Source of the DNA: Candidatus Nomurabacteria bacterium RIFCSPHIGHO2_01_FULL_40_20
GTDB lineage: Bacteria > Patescibacteriota > Minisyncoccia > Phycocordibacterales > UBA9973
Assembly: GCA_001786835.1 (NCBI GenBank)
Contig: MFTO01000015.1
Location: 1 to 32,822 of the forward strand
Direction of reading: 5' to 3'
DNA: 32,822 nt
Every line of letters begins with the position of its first letter. Positions within the stretch are counted from its first letter, which is position 1. Position numbers and translations under genes: made by a program. Shown piece after piece: positions 1,503 to 19,414 of this stretch. The notes under the pieces were generated by a model. That model was given only the letters and a program-made list of their open reading frames with translations. It ran no database searches and was not told the DNA's origin.

Positions 1503-2957
1503 ATGTCTTTGATTGACGAAATAAAAGATGCAAGATTAAAAAAACTTGAACTTCTCAAAAAGAAAGGTATAAACCCATACCCAGCCGAAGCAAAAAGAGA
1601 AATGTCTTTGGGAGAAGCTTCCGAGAATTTTGAAACTCTAGAAAAAGGGGGAGAGGCAAAATGGCTTGCGGGACGAGTGATGTCTATCCGCGGGCAGGGG
1701 GCTATAGTTTTTATCACCCTTGATGATGGCACCGGAGTGTTCCAAGGGCTTCTTAAAAAAGATTCTTTGGGAGAAGAAAAATTTGATTTTTTTGGCGAGG
1801 TGGCAGACATTGGGGACTTTGTGGAGATACAGGGAACTTTTTTCACGACCAAAAGAGGGGAGAAGACACTGGAGGTAAAAAATTGGAACATGCTTACCAA
1901 AACTTTGCTTCCGCTTCCGGAGAAATGGCATGGACTTACAGATGTGGAAGAGCGCTTCCGCAAAAGGTATTTGGATATTTTGATGGACAAAGAAGTACGG
2001 GAACTACTCGAGAAGAAGACAAAATTTTGGGAAGTGACTAGGAATTTTATGGTGAGTCATGGATTCTTGGAAGTAGAGACGCCGACACTCGAAGTGACAA
2101 CTGGTGGAGCCGAGGCTACGCCCTTCAAAACTTACAATGAAGATTTTAAACTTCCGCTTTATTTGAGGATTTCTATCGGCGAGCTTTGGCAGAAGAGACT
2201 GATGTCGGCTGGATTTCCGAAAACTTTTGAAATCGGACGCGCTTATAGGAATGAAGGTAGTGATGCGAATCACTTACAGGAGTTTACCAATATGGAATTT
2301 TATTGGGCGTATGCGAACTATAAAGACGGTATGAAGCTTGCCGAAGAGCTTTATAAAAAAATTGCGCTAGAAGTTTTCGGTAAAACTTCGTTTGAAACTC
2401 GCGGGCACAAGTTTGACCTCGGGGGCAAGTGGGAAGAGATAGATTATCGCGAGACTGTCAAAAAAGAAACCGGTATAGATATTTTAAACACCACTTATGA
2501 TGAAGTGAAAAATAAATTGGAAACACTTGGCGTGGAGTATGATGGCGAGACCATGGAGCGCTTGGTGGATACGCTTTGGAAATATTGCAGGAAGAATATT
2601 TCCGGACCGGTATTTTTGACGGGACATCCGAAACTCGTCTCTCCGCTTTCTAAATCCATGCCGGAGAATCCCGAGCTCACCGAGAGATTTCAAATAATTA
2701 TCGCGGGCTCGGAAGTCGGGAATGGCTTTTCGGAATTAAACGACCCCCTAGACCAGTTGGAGCGATTTAATGCGCAACAAGAATTGATTGACCGCGGAGA
2801 CAAAGAAGCTATGATGCCGGACTATGAATTTGTGGAAATGCTGGAACATGGCATGCCACCGACTTGCGGTTTCGGTTTCGGTGAAATGCTTTTTGCTTTC
2901 CTTGCTGACAAACCTATCCGAGAAACTCAATTTTTCCCACTTATGCGACCAAGATAA
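1503..2957 (+). CDS. lysS: Lysyl-tRNA synthetase, class II
   Basis: The 484-residue enzyme charges tRNA-Lys. It shows the N-terminal OB-fold anticodon-binding domain (about 55-150, LAGRVMSIRGQGAIVFITLDD), motif 1 (FLEVETPTLEVTTGGA), motif 2 (FEIGRAYRNEGSDANHLQEF) and motif 3 near the C-terminus (GFGFGEMLFAFLADKPIRE). The length is typical. Motif 3 of class II synthetases normally reads G-x-G-x-(D/E)-R, with the Arg contacting ATP phosphates. Here the residue after E461 is Met462 (codon ATG). A one-base change from AGG would restore Arg, so this is either a real substitution or a base error. It follows greA closely and ends before a hairpin. Confidence 0.94.
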   Translation: MSLIDEIKDARLKKLELLKKKGINPYPAEAKREMSLGEASENFETLEKGGEAKWLAGRVMSIRGQGAIVFITLDDGTGVFQGLLKKDSLGEEKFDFFGEVADIGDFVEIQGTFFTTKRGEKTLEVKNWNMLTKTLLPLPEKWHGLTDVEERFRKRYLDILMDKEVRELLEKKTKFWEVTRNFMVSHGFLEVETPTLEVTTGGAEATPFKTYNEDFKLPLYLRISIGELWQKRLMSAGFPKTFEIGRAYRNEGSDANHLQEFTNMEFYWAYANYKDGMKLAEELYKKIALEVFGKTSFETRGHKFDLGGKWEEIDYRETVKKETGIDILNTTYDEVKNKLETLGVEYDGETMERLVDTLWKYCRKNISGPVFLTGHPKLVSPLSKSMPENPELTERFQIIIAGSEVGNGFSELNDPLDQLERFNAQQELIDRGDKEAMMPDYEFVEMLEHGMPPTCGFGFGEMLFAFLADKPIRETQFFPLMRPR

Positions 2958-2962
2958 AGAGT

Positions 2963-2983
2963 TGCGGAAGTCCGTCTTCCGCA
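2963..2983 (+). terminator. Hairpin after lysS, possible terminator
   Basis: TGCGGAAG and CTTCCGCA form an 8-bp stem around a 5-nt loop, six bases after the lysS stop. The following bases are not a T-run, so it may stabilise the mRNA 3' end rather than end transcription by itself. Confidence 0.45.
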
Positions 2984-2996
2984 CTAAAAGGGAAGG

Positions 2997-3027
2997 AATA
3001 AAAAAAGACAGACCACAAATGGATCTG
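2997..3027 (-). terminator. Intrinsic terminator of the predicted small RNA
   Basis: On the minus strand CAGATCC and GGTCTG pair (one bulged base) around a 6-nt loop. The RNA then continues TCTTTTTTTATT, a clear U-tract. The orientation points away from mraZ, towards the 3' end of lysS. Confidence 0.6.
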
Positions 3028-3195
3028 CCCTTCAGGCCGGGAATGCTCTTCCCCCCACTAAATCTATTTCACCAATCGGGACGCGAATATAATTCCCGGT
3101 TCTGTTTGCCCCCCTTTGAATTAGGAGGCTTTCACGTGTGTCGGGCGCGATAGGCCTTCGTCACGTGGACTTTTTCTTCGAATCGAAAAAGTCAC
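3000..3195 (-). ncRNA. Predicted structured small RNA of about 195 nt, family unknown
   Basis: This gene-free stretch on the minus strand has a promoter, a series of paired segments and an intrinsic terminator. Hairpins in order along the RNA: GACTTTTTC with GAAAAAGTC (3194-3170), two CACGTG halves (3169 to about 3135), GCCTCC with GGGGGC around position 3120, CGGGA with TCCCG around 3085, GGGAA with TTCCC around 3045, and the terminator stem 3027-3009. No reading frame of note covers it. The size resembles 6S RNA, but the ends do not pair into the long 6S-type rod. No SRP, RNase P or tmRNA signature is visible. Identity is unknown. Confidence 0.5.
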
Positions 3196-3199
3196 TTTC

Positions 3200-3227
3200 A
3201 TAATAACACATTTACGATATTTAGCAA
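3200..3227 (-). promoter_or_regulatory. Promoter of the predicted small RNA
   Basis: On the minus strand TTGCTA (3227-3222), a 16-nt spacer and TATTAT (3205-3200) give a good sigma-70-like promoter. The predicted start is about 3195-3193, at the base of the first hairpin. Confidence 0.5.
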
Positions 3228-3245: not shown

Positions 3246-3254
3246 TTATCCACA
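3246..3254 (+). promoter_or_regulatory. Perfect DnaA-box consensus upstream of mraZ
   Basis: TTATCCACA matches the strict DnaA 9-mer. It is the only perfect copy I found in non-coding DNA here and lies 12 bp upstream of the mraZ -35. One box does not make an origin; DnaA control of the division cluster is possible. Confidence 0.4.
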
Positions 3255-3265
3255 GGAGGGCTCTT

Positions 3266-3319
3266 TTGCTATAAAAAGGGCAGTGGTATACAATGTATAC
3301 CAAGTGGGAAAAAGTGGGA
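3266..3319 (+). promoter_or_regulatory. mraZ promoter, 17-bp inverted repeat and two MraZ boxes
   Basis: TTGCTA (3266-3271), a 17-nt spacer and TACAAT (3289-3294) form the promoter. The -10 lies inside a perfect inverted repeat, GGTATACA-A-TGTATACC (3285-3301). Two TGGGA boxes follow at 3305-3309 and 3315-3319, exactly 10 bp apart. This is the TGGGA-N5 spacing known for MraZ, which represses its own operon, so autoregulation is expected. Confidence 0.75.
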
Positions 3320-3330
3320 AATAAAAATTT

Positions 3331-3777
3331 ATGCTCATCGGCGAATACATACATACTATAGATCAGAAAAACAGAGTGTCCGTTCCGGTAAAATTCAGGA
3401 AGGAACTCGGTCGGAAAGTTATTATCACTCCTGGGCTTGATAACTGTCTGTTCGTTTTCAACATGAAGGGTTGGGAAAAAGTTGCCAAGAGATTAATGTC
3501 TTCCGAAAACGATTTATCTTTCCTCCGCGCTGACCAACGAAGTTTCAATCGAAACATGTTCGGGCAAGCTATGGATGTGGAGATAGATTCAATCGGGCGG
3601 ATACTTTTACCGGACGTTTTGAAAGACAAAATCAAGCCGAAAAATTCTGTTGCGATTATCGGAGTAGAAGACCGGCTAGAAATTTGGAACGATGAAGTTT
3701 GGAAAAGCTATAAGGAAAAAGCCAGAAACGAAGCGGAAGCATTAGCAGAAAAATTGGCGGGCAGAAAAGATGAGTAA
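3331..3777 (+). CDS. mraZ: Transcriptional regulator MraZ
   Basis: The 148-residue product carries two SpoVT/AbrB-like swapped-hairpin repeats, at about residues 5-50 (GEYIHTIDQKNRVSVPVKFR) and 78-125 (MDVEIDSIGRILLPDVL). The D-x-x-(N/G)-R-(V/I) pattern appears in both. MraZ forms rings that bind tandem TGGGA boxes and usually represses the division and cell-wall cluster. Two such boxes lie 12-26 bp upstream of the start. The gene opens the cluster and overlaps rsmH by 8 bp, so the two are translationally coupled. The length is normal for the family (about 143). Confidence 0.95.
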   Translation: MLIGEYIHTIDQKNRVSVPVKFRKELGRKVIITPGLDNCLFVFNMKGWEKVAKRLMSSENDLSFLRADQRSFNRNMFGQAMDVEIDSIGRILLPDVLKDKIKPKNSVAIIGVEDRLEIWNDEVWKSYKEKARNEAEALAEKLAGRKDE

Positions 3778-18851: not shown

Positions 18852-19355
18852 ATGCAGACAAGAACGCTAAGTAACTTGGGGATATTTGCAGTTCCTGACA
18901 AAGTTACGGTAACTGAAGAAAAAGTGCAAAAAAGCTATGTTGATGTGCATTGTAAGCCGGGTTGCGGAGGGGCAACCTGTCGGTATTTTAAACGTGAAGT
19001 AAATGGGTTTGGTTCGATGTGCAGTAAATACATGTATAATACCGGCATCTTAGATAACTCGCTACTATCAAGGGAGAATTGTGACGGACAGTTTGTAATC
19101 CGGAGGGTTCTCAGTTTTCTGGAAAGCAATATTGGCAGGACCGTCAGTTTGAACGGGGAAACAATGAAACTAAAAAGTGTTTCTCCGACACAATTGGAAC
19201 ACACCAAAATTCTCTCACTATTTCAGAAGAAATTGAATGGGGATGATATCGGACACACCCGTCACCTTTTCCTTGATCGTATTAAGATCGAGGAGAGAAA
19301 GAAAAAAATAATTCTGCATAGCGCCGGCTATACTTTGAAAATCCTAAAAGGATAA
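18852..19355 (+). CDS. Unknown protein with a cysteine cluster
   Basis: The 167-residue product is not recognised. Near residue 34 it has CKPGCGGATC followed by a further Cys at about 56 (GSMCSKY) and one near 77 (ENCDG). The spacing could hold zinc or an iron-sulfur cluster. The C-terminal half is rich in basic residues (RIKIEERKKKIILHSAG), with no membrane helix or signal peptide. It has its own strong promoter, a structured leader and a strong terminator, so it is a single-gene unit and presumably well expressed. Confidence 0.65.
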   Translation: MQTRTLSNLGIFAVPDKVTVTEEKVQKSYVDVHCKPGCGGATCRYFKREVNGFGSMCSKYMYNTGILDNSLLSRENCDGQFVIRRVLSFLESNIGRTVSLNGETMKLKSVSPTQLEHTKILSLFQKKLNGDDIGHTRHLFLDRIKIEERKKKIILHSAGYTLKILKG

Positions 19356-19367
19356 AGGAATAGCCGG
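19324..19367 (+). terminator. Hairpin spanning the stop of the 18852 gene
   Basis: CCGGCTAT and ATAGCCGG pair, with an inner ATCCT/AGGAT stem. This would fold the last codons and stop codon of the mRNA and could protect its 3' end. Confidence 0.4.
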
Positions 19368-19372
19368 ACAAT

Positions 19373-19414
19373 AAAGTGCGGTTCACATGAACCGCACTTT
19401 CTTTTTGCTTTTTT
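19373..19414 (+). terminator. Strong intrinsic terminator
   Basis: AAAGTGCGGTTCA and TGAACCGCACTTT form a 13-bp complement around two bases (a 4-nt loop in practice). CTTTTTGCTTTTTT follows. It ends the 18852 transcript before gatB. Confidence 0.88.

Follow-up and report, generated by a model that had tools for sequence, protein, structure and literature searches.

A candidate small RNA gene divergent from mraZ in a Nomurabacteria genome, with a promoter at helical spacing from a DnaA box

Many small RNAs are lineage-specific, and the DnaA-regulated promoters of cell-cycle genes form a known class. In Rhodobacteraceae, the sRNA UpsM, of about 200 nt, is encoded on the mraZ strand and is produced by termination within the mraZ 5' UTR (PMC5089854). 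A literature search for small RNAs in reduced-genome (Patescibacteria-like) bacteria found no work. In this study, we report the analysis of a candidate small RNA gene of about 195 nt in the spacer between lysS and mraZ of Candidatus Nomurabacteria bacterium RIFCSPHIGHO2_01_FULL_40_20. The window referred to below is the whole stretch of 32,822 nt that was analysed; the source assembly comprises 0.55 Mb and is 78% complete. The reading that we prefer, and hold with about even confidence, is that of a stand-alone, lineage-specific small RNA gene, whose conserved divergent promoter is co-wired with mraZ via a DnaA box.

The lysS-mraZ spacer and the candidate transcript

The identities of lysS and mraZ are backed by NCBIfam family models (Table 1). 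Both genes have the same orientation and enclose a gene-free spacer of 373 nt. A sequence-only reading of the window had proposed that an unassigned, discrete RNA gene lies in this spacer on the minus strand, and had described its promoter, five or more hairpins, a terminator with a 7-T run, and an orientation away from mraZ and towards the 3' end of lysS. These elements were all recovered: the minus-strand promoter is present and has an extended -10 (TG precedes the -10), five hairpins are predicted on the same strand with the terminator counted, the terminator hairpin runs directly into its seven T residues, and promoter and terminator both lie on the minus strand. The claims that the stretch is gene-free and bears no signature of 6S, SRP, RNase P or tmRNA were likewise borne out, as it holds no ORF with a ribosome site (the sole frame of at least 12 aa begins near +1) and an Rfam search, at gathering level and at E 10, returned nothing relevant. 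The term 'antisense-oriented' is apt in so far as the RNA points at lysS; some 40 nt separate its 3' end from the lysS stop codon, and the two are therefore convergent, without antisense overlap of the lysS coding sequence. Its own promoter, its own terminator, the lack of an ORF and the gene-free spacer are the features expected of an intergenic small RNA gene.

Table 1. Features of the lysS-mraZ region, in window coordinates
Feature	Position	Strand	Basis or remark
lysS, lysine--tRNA ligase	1503..2957	+	TIGR00499, 448.7 bits, over cut-off; convergent neighbour of the candidate RNA
Short GC hairpin immediately past lysS	2963..2983	not assigned	Sequence
Candidate small RNA, ~195 nt	2997..3193	-	Fold z -3.67, promoter, terminator
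Intrinsic terminator, hairpin 3033-3003 then directly TTTTTTT	2997..3033	-	Sequence and scans
Sigma-70-like promoter TTGCTA-16-TATTAT, divergent from mraZ	3200..3227	-	Promoter scan, score 9/12
Perfect DnaA box TTATCCACA, flanked by the two divergent promoters	3246..3254	+	Only exact copy in the window
mraZ promoter-like site TTGCTA-17-TACAAT	3266..3294	+	Promoter scan
MraZ operator-like repeats AGTGGGAAAAAGTGGGAAA	3303..3321	+	Sequence; near-constant distance to the DnaA box in nearly all genus spacers
mraZ, opening the division/cell wall cluster	3331..3777	+	TIGR00242, 123.5 bits, over cut-off

The candidate RNA stretch has a G+C content of 48%, the window as a whole one of 40%. Its minus strand (197 nt) was predicted to fold at -71.5 kcal/mol, with one of 200 shuffles as good, against -56.5 kcal/mol (z -1.73) for the plus strand. 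The energy was the lowest among 220 sampled 197-nt window strands, the z-score only about rank 16, and z drops to -2.2 when the first hairpin is left out. Stronger support than the fold z-score is given by promoter and terminator taken jointly. Dinucleotide shuffling of the spacer, repeated 3000 times, produced such a terminator in 1.0% and such a promoter in 24% of the sequences; in none was a promoter of equal quality followed by such a terminator at a distance of 120-260 nt.

The same structure might instead belong to the plus strand, in which case lysS would have a long, structured 3' UTR and the minus strand no gene. The scan of the focal spacer gave no intrinsic terminator on the plus strand, and lysS transcripts may therefore enter the stretch; the short hairpin just past lysS has no U-tract on the plus strand and is reported by the terminator scan on the minus strand only. 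Two relatives (L049 and L062) have a plus-strand terminator past lysS. However, the plus strand folds far less well, and both the promoter and the T7 terminator are on the minus strand, which makes a lysS 3' UTR improbable.

The best z-score among the sampled stretches (-8.75) belonged to the surroundings of a hairpin and T-run at 19356-19410, after an ORF ending at 19355, that looks like an ordinary terminator. At 947-974, between a divergent S21-like gene and greA, the window also contains a perfect 28-bp palindrome, ACCCATACACTATATATAGTGTATGGGT, a possible operator.

The candidate RNA sequence is single-copy in its genome. BLAST with this sequence across 80 genus genomes (the focal genome and 79 congeners), and a covariance model of its structure run on the same 80 genomes and on 60 mraZ loci, gave only the RNA itself or chance matches. 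As there is no relative in the 79 congeners, no covariation could be counted and the structure is without comparative support. Closer relatives of the focal genome were sought through MraZ in a wider contig collection, and none was obtained: there were two matches, at no more than 47% identity, one of them a Ryanbacteria genome at 44%. The claim of a discrete RNA gene thus keeps its promoter, fold, terminator and want of an Rfam family, and loses conservation of the structure in relatives.

Several apparent leads were rejected. DNA BLAST matches in relatives near a GGTGAAATAG... motif were judged to be chance once the loci had been read. A module repeated in relatives, 'ATCGGCG...CGCC plus GCCTCG...', was considered as an RNA 3' end and dismissed because its other strand looks like a lysS terminator, a reading that the scan supports only in L049 and L062. 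The short motifs ACAGAA, GGTGAAA and AAGAGC suggested RNase P RNA (RF00010). It was discarded for this locus, as its model has no match in the window and the RNase P RNA of relatives is located elsewhere; it occurs at other places in 62 of the 80 genus genomes and was not found in the incomplete focal assembly.

A diverged housekeeping RNA such as 6S RNA would fit the length and the stand-alone gene, and could be hiding here, given that the Rfam model RF00013 found 6S RNA in 0 of the 80 genus genomes. It is nevertheless highly improbable: the locus gave no Rfam 6S match even at E 10, and several separate hairpins in series are predicted, in place of a single long rod with a bubble at its centre.

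The DnaA box and the divergent promoter across the genus

In the genus, lysS usually adjoins mraZ. The core of the DnaA box (TGTGGATAA, minus strand) hardly varies among 59 aligned spacers of the genus, and the box mostly lies 45-46 nt from the MraZ operator-like repeats. Throughout the genus the perfect box lies immediately upstream of the mraZ promoter. Elsewhere in the order, further families were seen by eye to have a DnaA box near mraZ as well; both orientations occur, often the opposite one. Together, box and repeats suggest DnaA control of the division cluster. The DnaA C-terminal domain was detected in 70 of the 80 genus genomes; a search of the focal assembly, at its 78% completeness, did not find it.

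Of 46 non-duplicate spacers of the genus, the focal one included, 28 had a promoter that is divergent from mraZ and scores at least 9/12; shuffled spacers gave 5.7 +/- 2.1 and the opposite strand 6. At a score of at least 10/12 the count was 17 of 46, against 1.0 expected.

The distance from the end of the -10 to the DnaA box is 32-36 nt in nine genomes, 43-46 nt in ten and 56-59 nt in six. These three classes take in 25 of the 28 spacings (46 nt in the focal spacer), the other three being 66, 75 and 83 nt. The spacing thus moves in steps of roughly one helical turn, at about 34, 45 and 57 nt, and a period near 11 bp fits. The periodicity gave R 0.70 and P <=5e-5 in uniform and jitter simulations, a significance that is inflated by relatedness, and the phasing test was conceived post hoc, after the numbers were seen. 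When clades were collapsed by hand to 14 values, P was 0.002-0.003 for a period of 10.5 or 11 bp, and 0.02 when the period was free. The spacing class changed at least 10 times on a tree of MraZ and RsmH with many weak forks. The arrangement has the phased box expected of a DnaA-controlled promoter, and is most simply read as contact between the polymerase at the divergent promoter and a protein, presumably DnaA, that occupies the box. Since that promoter keeps one helix face relative to the box, DnaA would most likely activate or repress it.

In the small RNA reading, transcription from the sigma-70 promoter divergent from mraZ would begin at a predicted start near 3193 and yield an RNA of about 195 nt, which would fold into a row of hairpins and stop at its own intrinsic terminator before lysS. 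One DnaA box would be common to the promoters of mraZ and of the small RNA, and DnaA control would tie the latter to the replication and division cycle. The RNA would probably act in trans, through base pairing or protein binding, as other small RNAs do, and its product would evolve too fast for counterparts to be recognised between species.

What lies behind the divergent promoter in relatives

In several relatives, the matching place holds a similarly oriented promoter that is followed by about 200 nt of noncoding sequence and by a terminator with a T-run. A minus-strand terminator closing a similar unit was found by scan in L044, L051, L084, L090 and L094, and by eye in L081. Many other relatives have small ORFs with ribosome sites, or no clear unit. 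The sequence past the divergent promoter has a mean fold z of -3.2 (28 spacers, focal included), and the transcribed strand surpasses its complement in fold strength in 18 of the 27 relatives (P 0.02). One pair of species, L056 and L100, keeps both promoter and hairpin, with 7 of 33 pairs changed and none broken; six of the seven changes pass through G-U states, which would be A-C on the other strand, a count that leans towards the divergent strand because RNAalifold chose the structure on that strand.

The sequence-only reading had made conservation among relatives that keep the lysS-mraZ neighbourhood its own check. Neither the RNA nor its structure has a counterpart there, and on this point the sequence-only reading fails; what has been kept is the divergent promoter with its spacing from the DnaA box, and the tendency for either a folded transcript or a small ORF to lie behind it.

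Small ORFs, instead of a folded RNA, follow the divergent promoter position in L041, L043, L061, L064, L065, L073 and L092, and several of them look like short membrane proteins. In L042, L058, L085 and L086 the lysS-mraZ spacer shares a stretch of 360-460 nt, 69-77% identical, possibly a plus-strand gene. The divergent transcripts of L049, L043, L056 and L048 contain sequences, TTGTTCTTT, that resemble the boxA of rRNA leader antitermination sites.

Such variety raises the possibility that it is the divergent promoter that matters, and not the RNA. DnaA-timed transcription would then tune the mraZ promoter by supercoiling or polymerase competition, and any sequence behind the promoter would be transcribed and ended at any available terminator. 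That promoter and box spacing are kept while the products range over folded RNA, small membrane-type ORFs and unrelated sequence speaks for this explanation. It has to contend with products that fold more than chance, and more so on the transcribed strand, with the one species pair that keeps a hairpin through pair-preserving changes, and with the strong terminator that the focal unit has of its own; we regard it as a serious but rather unlikely alternative.

The spacer might also be a hotspot for insertions, and the stretch a functionless element that was inserted there or is decaying. The length of the spacer varies from about 140 to more than 1300 nt among relatives, with largely unrelated contents, which would suit such a hotspot. 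On the other hand, the stretch is present once in the genome, searches of phage and plasmid collections with the candidate RNA gave no match, and its promoter and terminator are intact, so this origin appears quite improbable.

The small RNA reading may be extended, tentatively and with less confidence than the reading itself, to a genus-wide unit: DnaA would sit between two back-to-back promoters and drive the mraZ cluster as well as a fast-evolving divergent gene for a small RNA or small protein, and the divergent promoter would move only by whole helical turns. The focal RNA would then be one species' version of a replication-timed division regulator.

Comparison with known systems

If the unit is real, it would connect DnaA and the division cluster concretely with a non-coding RNA, and would exemplify regulatory wiring that is kept while its product is replaced. 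A test based on position can moreover support an RNA gene that is beyond the reach of sequence and covariance searches.

6S RNA (RF00013) is comparable in its length near 190 nt and its stand-alone gene; it differs in that the candidate RNA has neither the model match nor the rod-with-bubble fold. With the intergenic trans-acting sRNAs the candidate shares a sigma-70 promoter of its own, hairpins, an intrinsic terminator, the lack of an ORF and a fast turnover of sequence, whereas it is so far a candidate known from sequence. The perfect DnaA box beside division gene promoters recalls the DnaA-regulated cell-cycle promoters; here, in contrast, one putative box stands between the mraZ promoter and a divergent one, with helical-step spacing across the genus. 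UpsM is the nearest described case, likened by position: both RNAs are of about 200 nt, have several hairpins and an intrinsic terminator, and lie in the spacer that precedes mraZ and the division cluster. UpsM is co-transcribed with mraZ and released by termination in the 5' UTR, whereas the candidate RNA has its promoter and terminator on the opposite strand, is divergent from mraZ under a promoter of its own, and ends at lysS.
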